DNA from: Natronorubrum tibetense GA33
GTDB lineage: Archaea; Halobacteriota; Halobacteria; Halobacteriales; Natrialbaceae
Assembly: GCF_000383975.1 (NCBI RefSeq)
Contig: NZ_KB913017.1
Coordinates: 2,469,527-2,533,526, forward strand
DNA length: 64,000 nt
Direction: 5' to 3'
The notes under the pieces are model-generated. The model saw nothing but the letters and a program-made list of their open reading frames with translations, did not search any database and was not told the origin of the DNA. Each line of letters begins with the position of its first letter. The stretch's first letter is position 1. The position numbers and the translations under genes are program-made. Of the stretch, positions 1 through 11,816 are shown in pieces.

Positions 1-502
1 TCTCGGCGTCGCCGTCCTCACAGACGCGGTCGATTTCTGTCTGGACGCCCTCTCGCTCGCCGGCGAACCCGACTTCCCAGTACTCCTGTCCGTTCTCGAT
101 TCGAACCGGCGCGCTGTGGACGAATCCGTGCTCGAGCAGCGTCGGACAGATCATGTCCTGCGGATCGTACTCGAGGAAAAACTCCCGAACGACGTTGCCC
201 GGAACCGACGAGGATTGCCGTCGTCCGAACCGCTCCTGCAATTCGAGTACTTCGCCGGCTAGGGGCGACTCGCGTATTTCCTCGATCAACCCTTCGACTT
301 CGTCGACCGTCTGTCCGAAGGCAGTGAACAGTCCGTTGACTGATTCCCCTTCCGTCGTCGGTGCCGTGTAAATCGCGTGTGCCAGAATGCCTCCGCCAAC
401 TCGATCGGTCGATTCAATCGCCCAGCAGTTCGGATGCCACAGTTCGAGTGTCACCCGAGTGCCGTGTACTGACTGGCTCTCCCCCATTGTGCTCTCTACC
501 AT
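1..502 (-). CDS. Probable HTH_10-type transcription regulator, N-terminal part (truncated by window edge)
   Basis: The gene runs off the left edge, so only about 167 N-terminal residues are visible. It starts at ATG 502, with a second in-frame ATG at 487. The visible part is soluble and acidic and opens with GTRVTLELWHPNCWAIEST. That resembles the N-terminal sensor-like region of haloarchaeal bacterio-opsin-activator (HTH_10) regulators. The DNA-binding helix-turn-helix would lie in the missing C-terminus, so the call rests on resemblance only. It is divergently oriented to the broken aldehyde dehydrogenase, about 100 bp away, and could regulate it (inference). Confidence 0.5.
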   Translation of the reverse strand, partial: MVESTMGESQSVHGTRVTLELWHPNCWAIESTDRVGGGILAHAIYTAPTTEGESVNGLFTAFGQTVDEVEGLIEEIRESPLAGEVLELQERFGRRQSSSVPGNVVREFFLEYDPQDMICPTLLEHGFVHSAPVRIENGQEYWEVGFAGEREGVQTEIDRVCEDGDAE

Positions 503-600
503 CGTCTGTGCCTATCACACCAAATAGTCGTCGTTGCACCAATCACCACCCTCCCATGGACGGGTCGCGTTATTCTATACCTGGCGACTGATCGATATCC

Positions 601-2152
601 ATGAGTCAGCAAACCACAGAGCAGGTGTACGGCCACCACATCGGCGGCGACTGGACCGACGGCGACGGCACTGAGACCTTCGCGAGCGAAAATCCGGCGA
701 CGGGCGAGGAACTCGCCCGGTTCCACCAGGGAACCGAGTCCGACATCGACGCCGCCCTCGAGGCCGCCGAAGACGCGACCGACGAGTGGCGCGAACTCTC
801 CTACATCGACCGCGCGGAGTATCTCTGGGACATCTACCACGAACTGCGCGAGCGCACCGACGAACTGGCCGAAATCGTTACGAAAGAGTGCGGGAAGGAG
901 ATCAGCGAAGGCCGCGCGGACGTTGTCGAAGCCTACCACATGGTCGAGTGGGCGGCGGGCAACGCTCGCCACCCCCACGGCGACGTCGTCCCGAGCGAAA
1001 TCGGGAGCAAGGACGCCTCGATGCGCCGCAAGCCCCGCGGCGTCATCGGCTGTATCACGCCGTGGAACTTCCCCGTCGCGATCCCCTTCTGGCACATGGC
1101 CATCGCCCTCGTGGAAGGGAATACGGTCGTCTGGAAGCCCGCCGAACAGACGCCGTGGTGCGGACAGATCATCGCCGAGATGATGGACGACGCCGGCATT
1201 CCCGACGGCGTCTTCAACATGGTACAGGGCTTCGGTGACGCCGGCGCGAGCATCGTCGACGACGACCGGGTCGACACTGTCCTCTTTACCGGCTCCGCGG
1301 AGGTCGGCCACGAAATTGCGGGGAAAGTCGGCGGCCAGCCCGGAAAACTCGCGGCCTGCGAGATGGGTGGCAAGAACGGCATCGTCGTCACCGAGAAGGC
1401 GGACCTGGACATCGCCGTCCACTCCGCCGTGATGTCGAGTTTCAAGACGACGGGCCAGCGCTGCGTTTCCAGCGAGCGTCTGATCGTCCACGAGGACGTC
1501 TACGACGAGTTCAAGGAGCGATACGTCGCCGTTGCGGAGGATATCAGCGTCGGCGACCCGCTCGAGGAGTCGACGTTCATGGGGCCGGCGATCGAGCCTG
1601 AGCACGTCGAGAAGATCCACCGCGCCAATCAACTCGCTCGTGACGAGGGCGCCGAGGTGCTCGTCGACCGCGCGGAGCTCGACGCCGAGGAGATTCCCCG
1701 AGGAGATTCCCGAGGGTCACGACGAAGGCAACTGGGTCGGTCCGTTCGTCTACGAGATCGAGTACGACAGCGACCTGCGCTGTATCAACGAGGAAGTGTT
1801 CGGGCCACACGTGGCCCTCATGAGTTACTCGGGTGATATCGAAGACGCCGTCGAGATCCACAACGATACACCGTACGGACTCGCCGGCGCGATCATTTCC
1901 GAGGACTATCGCCAGATCCACCACTTCCGAGACCACGCGGAACTCGGACTCGCGTACGCGAACCTGCCGTGTATCGGCGCGGAGGTCCAGTTGCCCTTCG
2001 GCGGTGTCAAGAAGTCCGGCAACGGCTACCCGAGCGCCCGCGAGGCTATCGAAGCCGTCACGGAGCGGACTGCCTGGACGCTCAACAACTCCAAGGATAT
2101 CGAGATGGCACAGGGGTTGTCGGCGGATATCGAGGTCTCGAGCGACGACTGA
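601..2152 (+). pseudogene. Aldehyde dehydrogenase family gene, frameshifted by a 13-bp tandem duplication
   Basis: NAD(P)-dependent aldehyde dehydrogenase, restored length about 512 residues, which is normal for the family. All catalytic landmarks lie before the break: Asn156 in TPWNF, Glu254 in CEMGGKN and Cys288 in TTGQRCVSS. The spacing of 34 between Glu and Cys is typical. At 1685-1710 a 13-bp unit is present twice in tandem. It shifts the frame, so the first frame ends at 1836 after a nonsense tail while the family-like C-terminus (NWVGPF to the end at 2152) continues in another frame. Removing one copy gives an uninterrupted protein. The C-terminal sequence is closest in feel to the ALDH7/ALDH11-like groups, so a small semialdehyde is a plausible substrate (inference). 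Either a recent inactivating mutation or an assembly error. Confidence 0.9.
1685..1710 (+). repeat. 13-bp perfect tandem duplication causing the frameshift
   Basis: The unit CCGAGGAGATTCC occurs at 1685-1697 and again at 1698-1710. A 13-bp insertion cannot preserve the reading frame. With one unit the local protein reads DAEEIPEGHDEGNWVGPF, which fits the aldehyde dehydrogenase family. Confidence 0.95.
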
Positions 2153-2217
2153 TCGGCGAGGTCGCGCGGGGCGACCGAGCTGCGGTCTCGCTCGAGTAAC
2201 GGCGACGACTGATCGGC
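2142..2217 (+). repeat. 16-bp direct repeat around the aldehyde dehydrogenase stop codon
   Basis: GCGACGACTGATCGGC is found at 2142-2157, covering the stop codon, and again at 2202-2217. Both copies are preceded by GGTCTCG at somewhat different distances, which suggests an imperfect local duplication of the gene end. Confidence 0.7.
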
Positions 2218-2233
2218 AGACTCACAGAAATGC

Positions 2234-2270
2234 AAGGAGGATGCCCACGACTTTAGTCGTGAATGCAATC
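2234..2270. mobile_element. Possible end remnant of an IS200/IS605 (TnpB-type) element
   Basis: A perfect 7-bp hairpin, CACGACT-TT-AGTCGTG (2246-2261), is preceded by AGGAGGATGCC. From memory, haloarchaeal IS1341/TnpB-type elements often end in a hairpin of this kind (CCCACGACTT.AGTCGTGGG next to GGAGGATG). No transposase or TnpB gene is present here, so at most this is a solitary end or a small derivative. The right arm is followed by AATGC rather than GGG, so it is degenerate. Confidence 0.35.
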
Positions 2271-2320
2271 CGACACGACAGAGACGATCGTCCCGAAGAC
2301 ACATCGAAGCGATCCGAACG

Positions 2321-2326
2321 GTTAAC
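2321..2326 (+). promoter_or_regulatory. TATA-like box for the small membrane protein gene at 2353
   Basis: GTTAAC centred about 29 nt before ATG 2353. This spacing would give a leaderless or nearly leaderless transcript. Confidence 0.4.
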
Positions 2327-2352
2327 CCCGACGGGTACCGAACGCCGCGCCT

Positions 2353-2772
2353 ATGAACTCGAAGAAGGCCGTCGTCCGACAGGGTCTCGTCGGTGGCGGC
2401 TTCGTCACCCTGTTGCTGGCGGGAACGCTCGTTGTCGCGCTCGGCGTTCCGACGACCCCGTCGATGCTCGGCGTGGTGTCGTGGCTCGTTTTCGTCGGCG
2501 CAACGATGCTCGCCGCGGGGCGCCGGGAGCGCGTTAGAATCGGCTCGAGAACGGTCGGCTGGCCGCGCGTCGCCGCCGTTGCCATCGCGATGATCGCCGT
2601 CGGCTGGGGCGCGATCAGCCTTGGAAGCCTGCTCGCGGGCGACGGCATCACCGGGCTCGGCCCGATCGAAGCCGTCCTCACGGTTGGGATGGTGGGCTAC
2701 TTCGCGTGGTTCGCCCGCGAGTGCTGGGTCGGCGGGGCACGAATCGACGCGGAGACGTTCGCAGTCGACTGA
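2353..2772 (+). CDS. Small hypothetical membrane protein (139 aa)
   Basis: Not recognised. The protein has about four hydrophobic segments: residues around 11-31, 36-54, 72-94 and 105-121. They are joined by short loops, one of them basic (RRERVRIGSR), and the protein ends in a short acidic tail. No catalytic motif or cysteine pair is visible. It is a stand-alone gene downstream of the broken aldehyde dehydrogenase and has its own TATA-like element. The start at ATG 2353 fits that element. Confidence 0.7.
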   Translation: MNSKKAVVRQGLVGGGFVTLLLAGTLVVALGVPTTPSMLGVVSWLVFVGATMLAAGRRERVRIGSRTVGWPRVAAVAIAMIAVGWGAISLGSLLAGDGITGLGPIEAVLTVGMVGYFAWFARECWVGGARIDAETFAVD

Positions 2773-2992
2773 GCGAGCGACGAGAGACGGACTGTTCCGA
2801 GACGGGGAGGGTGTCTTAGTTGTCTCCACGAGGGCTCGAGTCACTACACCGCGTATCGGCTCGATTCGACGACGATTGACGCCGATCGGGCAGTCCACCG
2901 AGCGAGCCGTCTGCGTGCTTTTCGGGCTCTTTTCACCGAGGCGGTAGCCGTCCGGGAGTACAACCAAGGCGAATGCGGTTGAACCGACGAGT

Positions 2993-3367
2993 ATGTCGGA
3001 CGACACCACGACCGATCGGCTCGAGGACGCGGATCGAGAGCGCGAACAGGCACCGATCGACGAGAAACCGACGGATTCGATCGATCTCGAGCACGCGGAC
3101 CGGGTTCAGGTGGGCGTCACGCGTGGTGAAACCGATCTCGAACTCGGCCCGCCACGGGACTATCCGGATCGGGCCGACGTTTCGGTCCGGCCCGAGTCGG
3201 CCGACGGTCATCATCTAATTCTGAGTATCGACGCGATGGCGGGCGATCACGGAACGGGCCACGCGGACGTCGAACTGACGCCGTCGGAGGCGCGTACGCT
3301 GTGTGAACAGCTCGACGAGACGGTCCGCTGGATGACCGAAGAGGACGGTCCGGAAGCCGATCGCTGA
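2993..3367 (+). CDS. Hypothetical acidic protein (124 aa)
   Basis: Not recognised. The N-terminal third is hydrophilic and probably disordered. The C-terminal half reads as a compact beta-rich domain (DHHLILSIDAMAGDHGTGHA appears in slightly different form) followed by a helix with SEARTLCEQLDETVRWM. There is no signal peptide or membrane segment. Codon use and acidity match neighbouring genes, so I accept it as real. It stands alone between the membrane protein gene and the convergent CBS gene. Confidence 0.6.
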   Translation: MSDDTTTDRLEDADREREQAPIDEKPTDSIDLEHADRVQVGVTRGETDLELGPPRDYPDRADVSVRPESADGHHLILSIDAMAGDHGTGHADVELTPSEARTLCEQLDETVRWMTEEDGPEADR

Positions 3368-3520
3368 GCCGTTTCGTCGGGATCCGTTCAATGGCCAGCC
3401 CGGACCGACGGCCGACTCGATCGATTTCTCGAGACGTGCACCGCTGGTCGGCGGCAGCGGTAGTCGGTGAAAATCGGCGGCTGCGACTCGTCTACTCCGG
3501 ACTCGCCTCCGCTGGAGTGT

Positions 3521-3925
3521 CTAGTCCGGGCTCGGCGTCTCTTCGCGCGAAAGGTATGCCGCCAGATCGGACGTCGTGACGATGCCGATAACGCCCTCGT
3601 CCTCGTCGACGACGGGGAGGTGGTGGAAGCCGTGTTCGACCATTAGATCCGCGGCGTCGCGGATGGTCTCCTGTGCCGTCGCCGTGGTGACGTTTCGGCT
3701 CATGTACGTCGAGACCGGCGTCTGATCTTTCGGCTTGCGTTCGGCGACGATCTGGACGAAGTCCGTGCTCGTCAGGATCCCCTCGAGTTGGTTGTCCTCG
3801 TTGACGACGATGACCGAGCCGATCTCGTTTGCGAGCATCTGTTGTGCTGCCTCCTCGACGAGCGTGTCAGCGCGGACCGTCTCGAGCGACGTGGACATGA
3901 CCCGCGCGACGAAAATATCCTCCAT
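3521..3925 (-). CDS. Two-CBS-domain protein (134 aa)
   Basis: The whole protein is a tandem CBS pair (Bateman module): the first covers about residues 8-62 (VEEAAQQML... GILTSTDF), the second about 72-128 (IRDAADLMVEHGFHHLPVV... GIVTTSDL). Such stand-alone modules bind adenine nucleotides or S-adenosyl ligands and act as energy or ligand sensors; the partner is unknown here. The start at ATG 3925 is preceded by a TATA-like CTTATAG (on this strand, 3947-3953) and by an inverted repeat at 3932-3948. That repeat lies where a repressor would block transcription start. Confidence 0.9.
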   Translation of the reverse strand: MEDIFVARVMSTSLETVRADTLVEEAAQQMLANEIGSVIVVNEDNQLEGILTSTDFVQIVAERKPKDQTPVSTYMSRNVTTATAQETIRDAADLMVEHGFHHLPVVDEDEGVIGIVTTSDLAAYLSREETPSPD

Positions 3926-3931
3926 ACGCCT

Positions 3932-3948
3932 GTGTATTCTTTATACAC
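3932..3948. promoter_or_regulatory. Operator-like inverted repeat in the CBS-protein promoter
   Basis: GTGTAT-TCTTT-ATACAC has perfect 6-bp arms. It lies between the likely TATA box and ATG 3925 on the minus strand. The same arms, with a 3-nt spacer, occur upstream of gltB at 19501-19515. Confidence 0.45.
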
Positions 3949-3995
3949 TATAAGAATTGCCGAAGCGGATATCACCGTCCAGCTGGGGAGACAAC

Positions 3996-4080
3996 GTGGC
4001 TATCGTAGCCACTGGAGCTGTTCACACACCGATCGCATAGCCGTCGTGCGATCTGGCGTGCACTGACTTCCAGTGGCTAC
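3996..4080. repeat. Nested inverted repeats in the CBS / helicase-operon intergenic region
   Basis: GTGGCTA-TCG-TAGCCAC forms a hairpin at 3996-4012. The 12-mer GTAGCCACTGGA (4005-4016) recurs as its exact reverse complement at 4069-4080, 52 nt away. The two pairings are mutually exclusive because they share the left arm. No gene is visible between 3926 and 4206. Confidence 0.6.
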
Positions 4081-4165
4081 TATCGGTTCCGAGTGGCCCG
4101 TATGGGCGTCCTCTCGACCCCGTCCAGCGCCGCAACCAACGACCAGCTTTGCACTTCGCCTCACA

Positions 4166-4173
4166 TTTAAATA
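4166..4173 (+). promoter_or_regulatory. TATA-like box of the helicase-nuclease operon
   Basis: TTTAAATA at 4166-4173 predicts a start of transcription near 4196. This favours ATG 4207 over the in-frame GTG at 4192, which would lie upstream of the transcript start. Confidence 0.5.
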
Positions 4174-4206
4174 CCAACCCGGCCATACTCCGTGACGTAT
4201 CATCCG

Positions 4207-6519
4207 ATGGCGTCCCCTCCATCAGGTCTCGACGGGACCTGCAAACTGCTCCCCCAACCTGTACCCAGCGACGAGCTATTCGACCGCGTTGCGGCGGAGT
4301 ACGCCACCCTCGCCGACGAGTACGGTCCCCGGAACGTACTGGTTCTGAAACGCCACCCTGCCGGTCTCGACTCACTCACCGAGGCCCTCGCCGACATCGA
4401 CGTGACGGACGGCTCGCCCCGGTCGCCGCGCGTCGAGTCCCTCCCGGAGCACGCCTCGAAGGTGCTCGAGGCGTTCGATCCGACGCTGGATCGACTCGAA
4501 TACGAGGAGCGTATCGAACTCATCTCGCTGGTGATCGACGGTGCCAGCCGCGACGTTCCGGACTACCTCGAGCGGGCGGCAAACCACGAGAGTTTCGCCC
4601 GCGACGTCGGGCAACTCCTGCTCGAGGCGACGCGCCAGCAGTTGCGACTCGAGGACGTTGCAGACGACGACCCACACGACTGTCTCGCTTTCCTCTACGC
4701 GATGAACGATCGGTTCCACGCGGAACTCGAGTCGCGGGGGTACGTCGAACGAGCCGAGGTGATCCCGCGGACCGTCGAACTGCTCGAGTCGGATGTGGAC
4801 GGCCTCCGAACGCGCATAACGGACTCGATCGACGCCGTCCTCGCCGTCGAGTTCGAGGAGTACCGCCGACTCGATCGACGCTACCTCGCGGCGCTCACCC
4901 GAGACGCGGAACTGGTCTGTTTCGGGGAGCGCCACGCCAGCGTCGAACGCACGCGCGTCGAACCGGGCCGTATCGAGGACCTCGTCGGGGACGGACTCGA
5001 CGTGAAAGTCGTCGATTCGCGGCTCGAGCGGCCCGACGAAGACCGCCGTACGACACCACCACACCACGCGATTACGCGGCTGTTAGCGACGGGAGCGCCG
5101 CTGGAACCGGCAAAAACCGGCGGACAACAGTCGACCGGGACCGGAAACCGAGTCGGACCAGCGGAGCGCGGACGGGCCCGACGCATTCGGACCCGAACCG
5201 CCCGCGATCAGGTCGGTGCCGTCGCGAGCGAGATTCAGGCGCTTCGGGATCGCCACGACTGGCGCTTCGACGCGTTCGCCGTCGCCGTCCCGCGGATCGA
5301 ACGCGTCCCCGAAACCAGACGACAGCTCCGCGAGGCCGGGATTCCGACGGCGACGATCGGCACTCCTTCGCTCGCCGAAGACCCGGTCGTCCACGAACTC
5401 TACGCGTTCGTGACTCTCCAGTGCGAACGCGAACGCGACCCCGACAGAATCGACGCCGAACTCGTCGACGCCGTCACCGATCACGCCGTTCGCGGTCGAG
5501 AGGGGACAGCGACGGCGGAACCGCGGGACGTCTCGCTCGAGCGACTTCGCGCCCGCGTCGACGACGTGACGCCCGAATTGCTCGCGTCGTGTACCGACTC
5601 GAGCGTCGCCCGGTCGCTCGAGCGCTGGATCCGGCTGACGGACCTGAAGGGGCGTATCGCCCGCGAGGAGGCGTGGGTCGACGCCCGCGAGCAGTACGCG
5701 AGCGTCCGTCGAGTGCTCGAGATCGCCCGGTTCGTCGAGGAGACGGACCTCGTCGGCCCGGACTGGCAGGGACTGCGGCGGATGCTCCGGCGAACCATCC
5801 AGTACGACGCGCCGTACGTCCACGCGGTTGAGGCCCAACCGCCGACTGGCGGCGTCACGGTCTGTGCCGTCGACGACTGCAAGTACGATTCCTGGGAGAC
5901 CGTCTTCCTACTCGACCTGCTCGACGAGAACTATCCCGGCGAGCAGTTTCTCACACAACTGTTCCCGACGGCGTGGCTGCGCGGAATGGACAGCTATCCC
6001 GCGGTCACCGATCCGTCCGTAAGCGACGTTACGCGGACGTTCGCCACTGTCGATGGCGATCCCGGCGACGATTCCGTCGGGGACCCGTTCAAAACGTATC
6101 ACGCCCAGCGATCCCGGCGACGGCTCGCCCTGGGCACCCGTGCCGCACGAACCCACCTCTACTGTTGTTCGTACGAACGCGGCTCCGGCGGCCTGCGACG
6201 GACGTACGACGAGTCACGCTATCTGCAGCTGATCGACGCGACCGACGGACTCGATCTGTCGAACGTCGAAACCGACACTGCGGCGGCGATCCACGGCGAG
6301 ACGAACGCGCTCGAGGCGCTGCTCGCCCAGCCTCACGGCGAACTCGAGCGAATCCTCCGAGAAGCGAGCACCGGCGGGGAGGCCGACCTCGGCGCAACCG
6401 AGGAGCTATTCGAGGAGATCGCGGTCGTGCTCGAGGACGGCGATATCGACACGGAACTGGCCGAAGCCGTCCGTTCGCAGTTCGAGTTCGCCGCGGGGGA
6501 GGTGGTCCGCGATGACTGA
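4207..6519 (+). CDS. AddB-like helicase-fold subunit lacking Walker A
   Basis: About 770 residues. The C-terminal two thirds keep the shape of the second RecA-like domain of SF1 (UvrD/AddB) helicases. A segment near residue 350 reads like motif IV (DAFAVAVPRIE followed by a GIP-type turn). Around residue 546, VTVCAVDDCKYDSWETVFLL sits where motif V belongs but lacks the usual KG. Around residue 630, SRRRLALGTRAARTHLYC resembles motif VI. The N-terminus (VLVLKRHPAGLDSLTEAL) has no GxGKT, so ATP hydrolysis is unlikely. This is how AddB/RecC-type scaffold subunits look. The gene overlaps the next by 8 bp and is the first of three. GTG 4192 is an alternative start. Confidence 0.65.
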   Translation: MASPPSGLDGTCKLLPQPVPSDELFDRVAAEYATLADEYGPRNVLVLKRHPAGLDSLTEALADIDVTDGSPRSPRVESLPEHASKVLEAFDPTLDRLEYEERIELISLVIDGASRDVPDYLERAANHESFARDVGQLLLEATRQQLRLEDVADDDPHDCLAFLYAMNDRFHAELESRGYVERAEVIPRTVELLESDVDGLRTRITDSIDAVLAVEFEEYRRLDRRYLAALTRDAELVCFGERHASVERTRVEPGRIEDLVGDGLDVKVVDSRLERPDEDRRTTPPHHAITRLLATGAPLEPAKTGGQQSTGTGNRVGPAERGRARRIRTRTARDQVGAVASEIQALRDRHDWRFDAFAVAVPRIERVPETRRQLREAGIPTATIGTPSLAEDPVVHELYAFVTLQCERERDPDRIDAELVDAVTDHAVRGREGTATAEPRDVSLERLRARVDDVTPELLASCTDSSVARSLERWIRLTDLKGRIAREEAWVDAREQYASVRRVLEIARFVEETDLVGPDWQGLRRMLRRTIQYDAPYVHAVEAQPPTGGVTVCAVDDCKYDSWETVFLLDLLDENYPGEQFLTQLFPTAWLRGMDSYPAVTDPSVSDVTRTFATVDGDPGDDSVGDPFKTYHAQRSRRRLALGTRAARTHLYCCSYERGSGGLRRTYDESRYLQLIDATDGLDLSNVETDTAAAIHGETNALEALLAQPHGELERILREASTGGEADLGATEELFEEIAVVLEDGDIDTELAEAVRSQFEFAAGEVVRDD

Positions 6520-7624
6520 GGAGCAAGTCGGCCCGGACTCGAGGATTGAGGAGTTCGGAACTGCCAGCCTCGACGTGGACGGTCTCGAAACCTATCTCCA
6601 CTGTCCCCGGCGGTACGAGTTCGCTCACGTCGACGGGCTTGAGGGAAGCGACGACGAGACGACGATCGACGACCGAATCACCCTCCTGCGAACGGCGATC
6701 TGCGACGCGCTGCGACGCGGCGAGACGGGCCGCGAAGCGCTCGCCGATGCCGCACGGGAGCGACTCGAGGTGCTGTGGGCCGACCACGACGAGCGCTTCC
6801 ACTCGAGGACGCAACGGCGACACGAACGACGGGTGCTCGAGGCGACGCTCGAGGCGTACGTCGAGACCGTCGGCGTCGACCACGCAGCGGGGATCGAACG
6901 GCTGGCGGCCGAGTCGACCGACGGCGAACTGATCGGTCCGGATCTCCCGCTCTCGAGTACGGTTTCGCTGCCGGAATTCGAGACGGGAGCGAGAGCGGCC
7001 GCGGAAACGAGCGCGGACTCGGGAACCGAAATCGACGTCGAATCGGTCACGATCGACGCCAGCGTTGACTACGTCTACGCCGACGGCCGGTCGATCGTCG
7101 GCGTCCAGTTCGTCTCGACCCTCAGGTCGCTCGGGCTCCTCCGATATCGGTCCGACTGGGATCGAGGGATCGCCGAACGGTTTACCGACCACTTCGATCC
7201 GGACGCGGACGTCTTCGATCCGTCGTTCGTCGCCTCGCTCTTCGAGACGGCCGTCGTCATCGACGGACTTCGAACCCGCTGTCAGCAGTTAGGACTCGAG
7301 GATCGAACCTGTCGGTACGTCCAGATCCCCCTCGCCGATCGCTCGCAGACCGATATCAACTGGGTTCGCGAGACGGTCGAGACGAGCCTCGAGACCAAGG
7401 ATCTGACTGACGGCTACATCGATCACCACACCTACGGAATGACCCACAAACACCGAAACCGAACGGTCGACGACCGACTCGCAGATGTCGTGAGCGAGAT
7501 CGCGGGTGGTGCGTTCGATCCGACCGATCGCTGGGACGACATCTCGAACGACGCCTGTCCGGACTGTGGCTACACGGTCTGCTGTCGGGACTACATCGCC
7601 GAGGAGGTGCGGTTCGATGGATAA
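6512..7624 (+). CDS. Degenerate Fe-S PD-(D/E)XK nuclease-like protein (AddB C-terminal-like)
   Basis: 370 residues. The N-terminus has LHCPRRYEF, the first-cysteine motif of AddB/Cas4-type nucleases. The C-terminus has CPDCGYTVCC, providing the remaining cysteines of a likely 4Fe-4S staple. The nuclease core appears damaged: VDYVYADGRSIVGVQFV occupies the place of the usual D...(D/E)xK strand, but the lysine and second acid are absent. I infer a structural or DNA-binding role rather than cleavage. With the preceding gene it would equal one AddB split in two. It starts at ATG 6512 inside the previous gene's stop (ATGACTGA), and its own end overlaps the next gene by 8 bp (ATGGATAA). Confidence 0.65.
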   Translation: MTEEQVGPDSRIEEFGTASLDVDGLETYLHCPRRYEFAHVDGLEGSDDETTIDDRITLLRTAICDALRRGETGREALADAARERLEVLWADHDERFHSRTQRRHERRVLEATLEAYVETVGVDHAAGIERLAAESTDGELIGPDLPLSSTVSLPEFETGARAAAETSADSGTEIDVESVTIDASVDYVYADGRSIVGVQFVSTLRSLGLLRYRSDWDRGIAERFTDHFDPDADVFDPSFVASLFETAVVIDGLRTRCQQLGLEDRTCRYVQIPLADRSQTDINWVRETVETSLETKDLTDGYIDHHTYGMTHKHRNRTVDDRLADVVSEIAGGAFDPTDRWDDISNDACPDCGYTVCCRDYIAEEVRFDG

Positions 7625-10600
7625 TCCGAATCGAGACCGGAATGTCGACACGGACGACGGTAATTCCGAGAGCGACTCGCTCGAGCCCCAGGGGAACCAG
7701 CCGGCCGTCATCGACAGCGACGCGGCCTGTACCTCCGTCGACGCCGGGGCAGGAACTGGAAAGACGACGACGATGCTCATGCGGATCGAGCGTGCGATCG
7801 AACGCGGCGACGCCGATCCCGAGGACGTGCTCGTCCTGACGTTCGCGAACGAGGCCGCGGGTAGCATTCGGGACGCGGTCGCCGATCGACTCGATCCCGA
7901 AGCCGCCGCGGCGATCGACGTCTACACCTACCACTCGTTCTGTTATCGGCTGGTCCGGGAGTACGCCTACTACCTCGGCTATTCGCCGGAGTTCGACGTC
8001 GTCACCGAGCGCAAGCGACGCCGGATCGTCGGTCGACTGCTCGCGACCAACGACTACGATTTCGCAACCGTCGGACAGGGCTCGCCGGACGATCTCGCCG
8101 CCGGCGTCGATCGATTCATCCAGGCCATGAGCCAGGAGGATATCACGCCCGAGCAGCTGGAAGCGCAGCTTCCGGCGGTACGAACCCTCGAGCTCTGTAA
8201 CGAGTTCGTCCTCTGGCTCGAGCGGACCGCCGGCGACGAGCTCTCTTTCGACAACGAGGCGCTGCGCTACTTCAACGCGGACGACCACCTCGAGGCGTCG
8301 CGCCAGTCGCTGGTCGGCTACGGGAAGCTCATCACCTACTGTCGCGAGAAGATCGCGGAAGCCCCGGCGGAGTTCCGCGACGAAGACGTCGTCCGTGACG
8401 TCGACCGCTACCTCCGGGTGCTCCAGCAGTGTGTGACGAACACGATCGACGTGCTGTCGCTCGAGGAGCCGACGACCAAACAGCTACCCCGAGCGCTGTT
8501 CGGCAACGAGATCTGGCGCACCGCGACGAGTCGGATCGAGCAGAGCCCGTTCGGTCGCCTGAAACACTACGTCGAGTTCATGCGCCTCGCGCGCCACTAC
8601 ACCGCGGTCTACGCCGACTACCACGAGCATCTCGAGGAGGAGCGGACGCTGGACTTCGACGAACTGGTTCGGACGGCGACCGAGCTACTGACGGACGACG
8701 ATATCGCGACCGAGATCACGGACCAGTGGACGCAGGTTTATTGCGACGAGTTTCAGGACACCGACGAGACGCAGTTCGCGCTGATCACCGAACTCACCGA
8801 CGGTCCCGACCGGCCCGACCTGCTCGCCATCGGCGACAAGGATCAGGCGATCTACGGCTGGCGAGGTACCGATCGGGAGGGACTCGACGGGCTCGCCGAC
8901 GCCTACGACGAGCACGAGGCGATCGAACTCGAACTCAACTTCCGCTCGCGCCAGGAGATTCTGGATCTCACCAACCACTGCGACTACGGGCCACAGTCGT
9001 CGAAGACGCTCCGCGAAGTCGGGAGAGCGTCGGGAGAGTACGGAAGCGGGGCGGACGGGGAAAACGAGAACGGAGACGACACCACGGACGAGAACGGAGA
9101 CGGCGACGCGGAACGGCTCTCGGACCGCGTCGTCAAAGTCGAGAGCGACGAGATCGACCGATCAACTGCCGAACAGGTCGCGACGACCGTCTCGCGGCTG
9201 TTGAACGACGAAGCCGAGAACGTCCCCAAACGCTCGCTCGAGGATATCGCGGTCATCGTCCGGACGAACCGTCACGCGCAGGCGGTGGCCGACGAACTCC
9301 GCAACCGACAGATCCCCTACGAGATTTCGGGTTCGCCGCGGGGCGAAATATCGCCGGGCATGCAGACGCTCCTCTCGTACTTTCGCGTGCTCGTCGATCC
9401 GACGGCCGATGCGCACCTTCGGCGCGTGCTGCTCTACCGGTACCGGTTCACCGAGAGCGATCTGGCAACGCTTCAACAGCGGGACGGTTCGCTGTACGAC
9501 GCGGTTCTGGACTGCGAGCAGGCCGAACTCGACCATCCTGATCGTCTCGAACGAGTGCGCGACCAGTTCATCGAACTGGAGACGCTGCGCGACGTCTACC
9601 CGCTTTCGGGCTTCGTTCGCCGGTTCCGCGAGGTGACTCGCCTCGAGTGGTTCCTCACGACCGACGAGCGCGAGGAGTTCCAGCGCATAGAGCGGTTCGT
9701 CGAGGCCTACACCGCCGATTCGGTTGTCCAGACGCTGACCCCGGCGTTCGTCGATGCGCTCGAGGGGACCCTCCGCGGGAGCGGGAGCGAACGGACCCGC
9801 GGCACCCAGTCGTCGGACTCGGTCGACGTGATGACCGTCCATCAGGCCAAGGGCCTCGAGTTCGACACCGTCCTCGTCCCGTACCTCTCCGACGAGGAGT
9901 GGTGCGTCGATCGCGATTACGCTGAACGCGCGCGCTACCGACTGCTTGCGGCGACGCTCGACGACGACGTTGACTCGCCGCTGCTCGCGGATCTCGCAGC
10001 CGAGACGGTCGGCGAGGAGTGGCGCGTGCTCCACGTCGCGCTCACGCGCGCCGAAAATCACCTGTTCATTTTCGGCGCCGAGTACGAGTACGACGGCGAC
10101 GAGACCGAACTCGGCGTGTCGACCGCCGAGTCGTGTTTGTCGACCGAGATCGAGTGGTCCGTTGCCGGCCAGCGAATGACTCTCTGGACATCGCTGATCG
10201 AGAGCTTCCGGCGTGTACGGGAGACCTATCCCAAAACCGTCGTCGACCGGACGGCCGAGATCGGTCGCTCTGCCGGCAGTAGCCCGGGAACGATCACCTA
10301 CTACGCCGGCTACGAGGATCGATTCGTCGAACCGCTCGAGACACGAGAGGCGATCGAGACGGTGCACCGCCTGGGGCGGCAGTTGCGCAGCGGGACGCTG
10401 TTGCCGGCGGCCGACGCGGCGAGCCACGGCGGATCCGCGACTGCCGGCTCTGTAGAGGGATCGACACGGCGGGTTCCGAGCGGCCGTCGGCCGTCGGCGC
10501 TTTCGACTGACACCGTCCGATTCCCCGTCGAGACGCTCTCGAACGCGACCGAGGTGCCGGCCGCGTTGCGTCACAGTTACACGGCAATGGAGACCCACGA

Positions 10601-11378
10601 GACCTGCGCGCGGAAACACTACCTCGATCACGTCGTGCGGGCGGTCGACGATGCGAACGGTTCGTCCGTGGCGTCGACGGACGAGGGGAACGAGGGTGAC
10701 CACAGGACGGGATCGAGGACCGTCGGCACAGTCTTCCACGACGTCGCCGAAGAGGCCTTCTACCGCGACTATCGAAGCCGCGAGGAGTGGCGCGAGGCGG
10801 CCGTTCGGCAGCTGACGGCCCGAGATCTGCTCGAGCACCGCGAGGCCGTCCTCGCCTGTGTCGATCGCTACTTCGAGGCCACCGCACCCGCGTTCGACGA
10901 ACGAGTTGCCGACTGGGAACAGCTCGCCGCGGAGCTCCCGTTCGCACTCGAGGATGTCTCCGGGGTAGACGGCGAGGTCGTCGGCTTCGTCGACTCCGTT
11001 CGGCGGACGCCCGAGGGCGATGTCGTGATTCTCGATTACAAGGCGACGGCCGATCGGATCGATCCCGGCGAGGCGACGCAGTTGGCGCTGTACGCTCGCG
11101 CCTGCGAGCGCCTGTTCGACGAATCGGTTGCTGCCGTCGGCTACGTCTACGTCGGCGCGGTCGATGGTCCCCGCGTCGACCTCGTCACACCAGCGGAACT
11201 CCCCGCCTGGTCGTCAGTACGCGAGACGCTCGAGGCGGTCGACGATCCGTCCTTCGACGAGACGACGCCCGGCGAACACTGTCGGTACTGTCCGCATCGG
11301 TCGCTGGGCTGTGGACCCGAAGCGGACACGGCTGATACGTTGGATATGTCAGGGAGCGATCCTGCTGCCGATGATTGA
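7617..11378 (+). CDS. UvrD/AddA-type helicase fused to Fe-S PD-(D/E)XK nuclease
   Basis: 1253 residues. All SF1A motifs are present: Walker A AGAGTGKTT (about 45), DEFQDTDE (about 376), GDKDQAIYGWRG, TVHQAKGLEFD (about 740) and HVALTRAENHL (about 805). The C-terminal nuclease has GFVDSV (about 1122) and ILDYKA (about 1138) as the D...DxK active site. CARKHYL (about 998) and CRYCPHRSLGC (about 1221) give four cysteines for an Fe-S cluster. Acidic low-complexity inserts occur near residues 475-505. It should be an ATP-driven, DNA-end-processing helicase-nuclease. I take ATG 7617, overlapping the upstream stop, rather than an upstream frame extension. In bacterial AddAB the Fe-S staple is in AddB, so its presence here in the active subunit is unusual. 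Confidence 0.85.
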   Translation: MDNPNRDRNVDTDDGNSESDSLEPQGNQPAVIDSDAACTSVDAGAGTGKTTTMLMRIERAIERGDADPEDVLVLTFANEAAGSIRDAVADRLDPEAAAAIDVYTYHSFCYRLVREYAYYLGYSPEFDVVTERKRRRIVGRLLATNDYDFATVGQGSPDDLAAGVDRFIQAMSQEDITPEQLEAQLPAVRTLELCNEFVLWLERTAGDELSFDNEALRYFNADDHLEASRQSLVGYGKLITYCREKIAEAPAEFRDEDVVRDVDRYLRVLQQCVTNTIDVLSLEEPTTKQLPRALFGNEIWRTATSRIEQSPFGRLKHYVEFMRLARHYTAVYADYHEHLEEERTLDFDELVRTATELLTDDDIATEITDQWTQVYCDEFQDTDETQFALITELTDGPDRPDLLAIGDKDQAIYGWRGTDREGLDGLADAYDEHEAIELELNFRSRQEILDLTNHCDYGPQSSKTLREVGRASGEYGSGADGENENGDDTTDENGDGDAERLSDRVVKVESDEIDRSTAEQVATTVSRLLNDEAENVPKRSLEDIAVIVRTNRHAQAVADELRNRQIPYEISGSPRGEISPGMQTLLSYFRVLVDPTADAHLRRVLLYRYRFTESDLATLQQRDGSLYDAVLDCEQAELDHPDRLERVRDQFIELETLRDVYPLSGFVRRFREVTRLEWFLTTDEREEFQRIERFVEAYTADSVVQTLTPAFVDALEGTLRGSGSERTRGTQSSDSVDVMTVHQAKGLEFDTVLVPYLSDEEWCVDRDYAERARYRLLAATLDDDVDSPLLADLAAETVGEEWRVLHVALTRAENHLFIFGAEYEYDGDETELGVSTAESCLSTEIEWSVAGQRMTLWTSLIESFRRVRETYPKTVVDRTAEIGRSAGSSPGTITYYAGYEDRFVEPLETREAIETVHRLGRQLRSGTLLPAADAASHGGSATAGSVEGSTRRVPSGRRPSALSTDTVRFPVETLSNATEVPAALRHSYTAMETHETCARKHYLDHVVRAVDDANGSSVASTDEGNEGDHRTGSRTVGTVFHDVAEEAFYRDYRSREEWREAAVRQLTARDLLEHREAVLACVDRYFEATAPAFDERVADWEQLAAELPFALEDVSGVDGEVVGFVDSVRRTPEGDVVILDYKATADRIDPGEATQLALYARACERLFDESVAAVGYVYVGAVDGPRVDLVTPAELPAWSSVRETLEAVDDPSFDETTPGEHCRYCPHRSLGCGPEADTADTLDMSGSDPAADD

Positions 11379-11396
11379 ACGGCGTCGTCAGGCACG

Positions 11397-11816
11397 TCAG
11401 AGGGACATCAGAACCACCGCGAGTACGGCAAAGCCGATCCCCGACAGTTTTCTGAACGTTAGCGACTCCTCGAGTACGAGAACGCCGATGACCGAACTGA
11501 CTGCGATGAATAGCCCGTAGAGCGGGACGACGACACTGACGGGACCGAGGGCGAGCGCTCGGTAGTACGCCAACAGACCGACGGCGAGCAACACGCCCCA
11601 GACGACGATATGTGGCAGTTTCGGATGCGAGAGATACTCCCGGGGGGACTGCCCCTGATGGACCAGCAGACCACCGAGGAGGACGAGCATAATCGTGTTC
11701 GACATGAAGACTGCCGTCGTACTCGGAATCGTCTCCATCGCGACCTTCAACAGCGGCGCGACCAGGCTGTACGCGACGAACGCGACGAACGAGAGCAGCA
11801 GATACCGTCGGCTCAT
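11397..11816 (-). CDS. Half-size EamA/DMT transporter subunit (139 aa), second of a pair
   Basis: About five hydrophobic helices with the EamA-type ending PVSVVVPLYGLFIAVSSVIG followed by a short LEESLTFRKLSG loop and a last helix. A standard EamA transporter has ten helices, so this is half a molecule. Its ATG (11816-11814) shares one base with the stop of the upstream homologue (TAATG). The two proteins are therefore probably made together and may form a heterodimer. The substrate is not predictable. It converges with the helicase-nuclease gene, which ends 18 bp away. Confidence 0.8.
   Translation of the reverse strand: MSRRYLLLSFVAFVAYSLVAPLLKVAMETIPSTTAVFMSNTIMLVLLGGLLVHQGQSPREYLSHPKLPHIVVWGVLLAVGLLAYYRALALGPVSVVVPLYGLFIAVSSVIGVLVLEESLTFRKLSGIGFAVLAVVLMSL

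Follow-up and report, generated by a model that had tools for sequence, protein, structure and literature searches.

Three overlapping genes of the haloarchaeon Natronorubrum tibetense probably encode a three-protein, AddAB-like, ATP-driven helicase-nuclease for DNA ends with a resident chromosomal role in Natrialbaceae, a reading to which we assign a probability of about 0.7. The genes are located in the window, which is the whole stretch of 64,000 nucleotides analyzed here. The three open reading frames delimited in a preliminary description were recovered at the same coordinates and in the same direction, all with ATG as start codon and with overlaps of 8 nt (Table 1). That description had proposed an AddAB analogue in which AddB is split into two proteins; architecture, predicted folds and colinearity agree with this, but the curated AddA and AddB families were not reached.

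Table 1. Features of the three-gene operon and its context in N. tibetense (positions are those of the window, except where the prefix G000 marks genome coordinates).
Feature	Position	Strand	Description
Gene 1	4207..6519	+	AddB-N-like, predicted inactivated SF1 helicase fold, 770 aa, without Walker A
Gene 2	6512..7624	+	AddB-C-like, predicted PD-(D/E)XK fold, Fe-S-type C31/C349/C352/C358, D-x-K and Q-x3-Y lost, 370 aa
Gene 3	7617..11378	+	UvrD-type helicase and intact PD-(D/E)XK nuclease, Fe-S-type cysteines, 1253 aa, AddA-like position
Gene 1/gene 2 overlap	6512..6519	+	8 nt; translational coupling presumed
Gene 2/gene 3 overlap	7617..7624	+	8 nt; translational coupling presumed
Divergent CBS-domain gene	3521..3925	-	Marker of the conserved chromosomal position of the clade (56/65 loci); context, outside the machine
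NurA domain	G000:C1:1160362-1161306		Model match in the N. tibetense genome

Gene 3 had been described as a complete UvrD helicase with a D...DxK nuclease and four cysteines, and all of these motifs were found. The UvrD N- and C-terminal domains and PDDEXK_1 were matched in Pfam well above the cut-off, the Walker A motif (GAGTGKT) and all the UvrD motifs are present, and the nuclease residues D1126...D1140-Y-K1142 are intact. Cysteines C997, C1222, C1225 and C1232 are invariant, supporting the earlier suggestion that the active subunit may carry an Fe-S-type staple as well. Profile comparison with methanogen AddA produced an alignment along nearly the full length (E=1e-80). Against the curated models, gene 3 scored 142.8 bits for addA_Gpos (cut-off 707.65) and 124.3 for addA_alphas (cut-off 860.75), and its scores are nearer to PcrA/UvrD and AdnB than to AddA. 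The nuclease domain is nearest to AdnA/AdnB, its best PDB match, and then to Cas4, and by raw path length in a gene 3 tree, where branches are long, the protein is nearer to solo UvrD-Cas4-like fusions than to AddA. PADLOC matches to GajB and others were attributed to general UvrD similarity.

Gene 1, previously considered helicase-like and devoid of Walker A, lacks this motif in the window and in all of its 132 relatives, and a UvrD/AddB fold is predicted for it. Single sequences of gene 1 gave nothing useful against Pfam, NCBIfam, PADLOC and PDB, and the family profiles alone were informative, the best PDB match being AddB (E=6e-9), in an alignment that includes the degenerate motif II region; weak matches to SETD3 and ATP synthase were judged to be due to chance. 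Among the top 50 matches of the AlphaFold2 model, which is of fair quality (pLDDT 80.1), AddB has the highest query-normalised TM-score (0.58, with UvrD/PcrA/Rep at 0.46-0.52). Ranking by E-value puts plain UvrD structures on top, and the rmsd of the whole-chain superposition is large, about 10 Å.

The cysteine-rich and nuclease-like character attributed to gene 2 stands in what concerns the fold and the four cysteines, but the protein is nuclease-like in fold only, because the catalytic D-x-K and Q-x3-Y are missing. PDDEXK_1 was matched with 34.8 bits, above the cut-off, and the four conserved cysteines (Table 1) form the C...CxxCx5C motif of the AddB nuclease for a putative Fe-S cluster; these Fe-S-type cysteines are retained in all but one of the 75 distinct sequences listed. 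Since the gene 2 profiles lacked a PDB relative by sequence, the fold had to be predicted; matches to potassium channels and to a zinc-finger receptor were judged to be due to chance. The AlphaFold2 model is good (pLDDT 86.5), and in PDB it matches AddB first (prob 1.00, E=1.9e-4) and AdnA next.

Structure prediction therefore places genes 1 and 2 both on AddB. In the profile comparison with the fused AddB of methanogens from the same phylum, gene 1 covers columns 10-353 (E=2.6e-15), and columns 719-1024 are covered by gene 2 (E=5.8e-10), an alignment that supports a split AddB and would be compatible with either splitting or fusion having come first. As matches to SF1 helicase profiles and folds are partly generic, it is coverage, together with colinearity and gene order, that links the genes specifically to AddB, and the split AddB is supported as a predicted fold and an architecture. 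The curated AddB model found no match in gene 1, gene 2 or the whole genome. Given that the curated AddA and AddB cut-offs were missed and that the nuclease is nearest to AdnA/AdnB, we describe the system as AddAB-like by architecture and do not file it as AddAB.

The operon shares features with several known machines. As in AddA, gene 3 combines an SF1A helicase and a PD-(D/E)XK nuclease, both with active motifs; its partner is helicase-dead, with a C-terminal part of Fe-S-type PD-(D/E)XK fold, and the order is that of methanogen AddB-AddA pairs, addB and then addA. By contrast, AddB is a single chain whereas its counterpart consists of two genes in the 132 loci, the AddB-type nuclease is dead in the clade of the window and intact in the sister clade, and the methanogen AddA consensus lacks the Fe-S-type cysteines that gene 3 carries. 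Archaeal addAB genes are reportedly described in a study on AddAB/RecBCD phylogeny published in J Bacteriol in 2009. In RecBCD, RecC is the helicase-dead and nuclease-dead partner, and the operon resembles this complex in its three polypeptides and in a partner dead in both functions beside an active subunit. It differs from RecBCD in keeping Fe-S cysteines in the dead nuclease, and RecB is a more distant match of gene 3 than AdnB or AddA; no helicase match that could represent a RecD-type SF1B second motor was found among the neighbouring proteins scanned. The likeness to AdnAB concerns the gene 3 nuclease and also its helicase, for which AdnB is a better match than AddA. However, AdnA is one polypeptide with its own nuclease, whereas the operon has a partner made of two proteins with a helicase half that lacks Walker A, and helicase plus nuclease in both subunits was not observed, as gene 1 has no Pfam match and gene 2 shows a nuclease fold only.

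Conservation was studied in 132 retrieved haloarchaeal loci, some of them representing one genome fetched by two routes. The order 1-2-3 is kept in all 132. The start of gene 2 overlaps gene 1 by 4 or 8 nt in 129 of these loci, and that of gene 3 overlaps gene 2 by 1, 4 or 8 nt also in 129. Pairwise dN/dS values of 0.14-0.26 over all three genes indicate purifying selection, which is of the same kind in gene 2 (0.20-0.26) as in genes 1 and 3. Order, overlaps and dN/dS put this arrangement far from chance. Among 292 haloarchaeal genomes, 107 contain gene 1 and 106 contain gene 3 at full strength; the sole mismatch is one genome with a gene 1 fragment. A gene 3 occurring widely by itself had been named as an outcome contrary to the split AddB; not a single case without gene 1 appeared in these 292 genomes, and the survey thus refutes nothing. 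The gene family is present in 65 of the 75 Natrialbaceae genomes sampled and in 42 of the 217 sampled outside this family, and the gene 1 counterpart of N. texcoconense, 93% identical, is the nearest among named relatives. Neither phage records nor IMG/VR viral contigs gave any relative of the operon, and a viral origin was dropped.

It could also be argued that gene 3 works by itself as a helicase-nuclease of UvrD-Cas4 type and that genes 1 and 2 have an accessory, regulatory function and form no AddB-like subunit. Every motor, nuclease and staple motif is present in gene 3, which resembles by architecture the UvrD-Cas4 fusions (UvrD and an Fe-S Cas4-like nuclease in one chain), and such fusions are known from archaea and bacteria as stand-alone genes or in non-conserved contexts, with defence contexts reported (PMC5704561), and are present in methanogens of the same phylum. 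Gene 3 is nevertheless locked to genes 1 and 2, to the point of never appearing without gene 1 in the 292 genomes, and these two genes correspond in order to the N- and C-terminal parts of AddB; we regard a self-sufficient gene 3 as improbable. The methanogen proteins of this type (loci L197-L201) are solo UvrD plus Cas4-like nuclease proteins of 1018-1046 aa, separate from the AddB-AddA pairs of other methanogen loci.

Gene 2 divides the family in two. In the sister clade it shows the motifs G-x-x-D...D-Y-K and Q-x3-Y, whereas in the clade of the window the D-x-K site reads Q/R/K-F/Y and Q-x3-Y is missing, with all four cysteines retained. Neither the window nor any of the 65 loci of its clade keeps D-x-K. 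Judged from its residues, the gene 2 protein of the window is nuclease-dead with its Fe-S cysteines kept, and the complex would therefore contain one nuclease, against two in the sister clade. The motif table suggested repeated independent losses, which were ruled out by the gene 3 tree; this tree, which is independent of the gene 2 residues, has loci with an intact gene 2 in one supported clade and those with a dead gene 2 in another, separated by one change. It is a quick tree with long outgroup branches, for which its root is less sure, and the outgroup AddB proteins carry an intact nuclease motif, making loss the simpler direction.

The lost catalytic residues, and one genome in which genes 2 and 3 are missing and only a remnant of gene 1 persists, could be taken as signs that the operon of the window is decaying and the machine is disappearing. 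Against this, the gene 3 tree places one loss far back, before the clade diversified, the overlaps and the Fe-S cysteines of gene 2 are retained, and dN/dS of gene 2 is near 0.2, as in genes 1 and 3. The values of dN/dS and the conservation throughout the clade refute decay in the main, and we give it hardly any credit. Gene 2 has lost catalysis and yet is under purifying selection, supporting that it is kept for a non-cutting role. By analogy this role is plausibly DNA-end binding through the staple, since Fe-S staple binding of DNA ends is reported for AddAB according to Yeeles et al. 2009, as listed in PMC4824097.

Gene architecture, folds, motifs, conservation, linkage and phylogeny were computed here, and we infer complex formation, Fe-S occupancy, polarity, end processing and the cellular role. 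Gene 3 would be the only motor, a 3'-5' UvrD-type one, and in the clade of the window also the only catalytic nuclease, and genes 1 and 2 would jointly replace AddB. The gene 1 protein, with an ATPase-dead helicase fold, would keep hold of the other strand and might also scan it, and the gene 2 protein would contribute a nuclease-dead domain retained for the Fe-S-type staple and the binding of DNA ends. The copy in the window would most likely act as a resident chromosomal enzyme of Natrialbaceae that processes DNA ends, either broken or foreign, while the dual-nuclease sister operons would serve at least partly in defence, alongside Argonaute and PLD proteins.

The genomic setting differs between both clades. 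The CBS-domain neighbour is present in 56 of the 65 loci of the clade of the window, surrounded by metabolic and housekeeping genes, and neither Argonaute nor PLD was found within the flanks examined of any of these 65 loci; in Natrialbaceae this copy keeps to one fixed chromosomal position. In part of the dual-nuclease clade, the operon lies downstream of Argonaute and PLD-ATPase genes in one direction, in some copies as the final three genes of an Argonaute-PLD operon, and this placement, which is a new observation, implicates those copies in defence. The Argonaute corresponds to pAgo in PADLOC (>1000 bits) and to Pfam Piwi, and was matched upstream in 13 sister-clade loci from about eleven distinct genomes, one match being broken. 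The genome of N. tibetense carries itself a second, dual-nuclease copy (L042, G000:C1:3372000-3388000, 327-11611), where a long prokaryotic Argonaute (327-3008), the PLD-ATPase (to 5191) and genes 1-3 (from 5197) are consecutive and nearly touching. In a sub-clade found on plasmids, a related AAA ATPase and a PLD protein adjoin the operon, with a VirB4 gene near one example. Divergent copies are found beside proteins of DrmA/DrmB (DISARM) and PglZ (BREX) types (L152, 10818-14830; L163, 1657-3762).

These contexts have been partly noted before, as PMC11442185 mentions a helicase gene adjoining some haloarchaeal ago-agaP operons and PMC6299218 a UvrD/PD-(D/E)XK orthogroup near pAgos, and the available text of these two papers does not describe a three-gene AddAB-like unit. 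The likeness to pAgo-AgaP (APAP) systems is thus that some sister-clade operons come directly after ago and PLD genes; the copy in the window is not beside ago, whereas ago and agaP do accompany the second copy (G000:C1:3372000-3388000).

From such neighbours it could be proposed that the whole family is primarily an anti-plasmid and anti-virus defence, and that the copy in the window is a chromosomally settled degrader of foreign linear or nicked DNA and has no part in repair. The Argonaute just upstream in about eleven sister-clade genomes, the consecutive genes of the second N. tibetense copy, the plasmid sub-clade, the BREX and DISARM type flanks and the patchy distribution outside Natrialbaceae all favour this proposal. 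However, the clade of the window has neither Argonaute nor PLD in its flanks, shares a CBS-domain neighbour among otherwise housekeeping ones, and the family is carried by most of the Natrialbaceae sampled. We consider a purely defensive family a reasonable reading that falls somewhat short of even odds. More speculative, and rather doubtful, is the origin of both clades in a five-gene defence machine, in which Argonaute and PLD-ATPase would work with a dual-nuclease split AddAB that either supplies Argonaute with single strands or guide fragments or finishes off the DNA that Argonaute has cut. In one lineage the second nuclease would have been lost a single time and the association with Argonaute given up, and the machine would have become a fixed chromosomal end-processing enzyme of Natrialbaceae. 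If this were true, the lineage of the window would represent a RecC-like inactivation with the Fe-S staple kept.

The contrast drawn in the preliminary description with HerA-NurA end resection did not hold. Although HerA and NurA are stated to be absent from Haloferax volcanii in a review (PMC7776575), the NurA model was matched in 78 of the 79 haloarchaea sampled, including the N. tibetense genome, and in the H. volcanii control. The operon is therefore no simple replacement of HerA-NurA, and a missing role of this pair filled by it is not supported; with NurA nearly universal in the haloarchaea sampled, these organisms may already have what end resection requires. A matched domain is, however, in itself no proof of function.

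A split-AddB architecture in archaea would join the AddAB/RecBCD/AdnAB kind of machines, and its two clades offer a natural experiment, two nucleases in one and a single nuclease with an intact Fe-S motif in the other, where the role of the staple could be separated from catalysis. The helicase reported near haloarchaeal ago-agaP operons may be part of a three-gene end-processing unit, making the link between Argonaute and helicase testable in a haloarchaeon such as Haloarcula hispanica.

Two small contigs of the same genome contain further helicase-nuclease pairs (L220, G000:C3:78000-94000, 5672-11529; L221, G000:C5:150000-166000, 5161-10607). In both, a UvrD-type helicase, in a frame also matched in the genome search with PDDEXK_1, lies beside a PD-(D/E)XK protein of 862-1006 aa that has no NCBIfam match, and these pairs apparently represent a different, two-gene kind of AddAB-like system.
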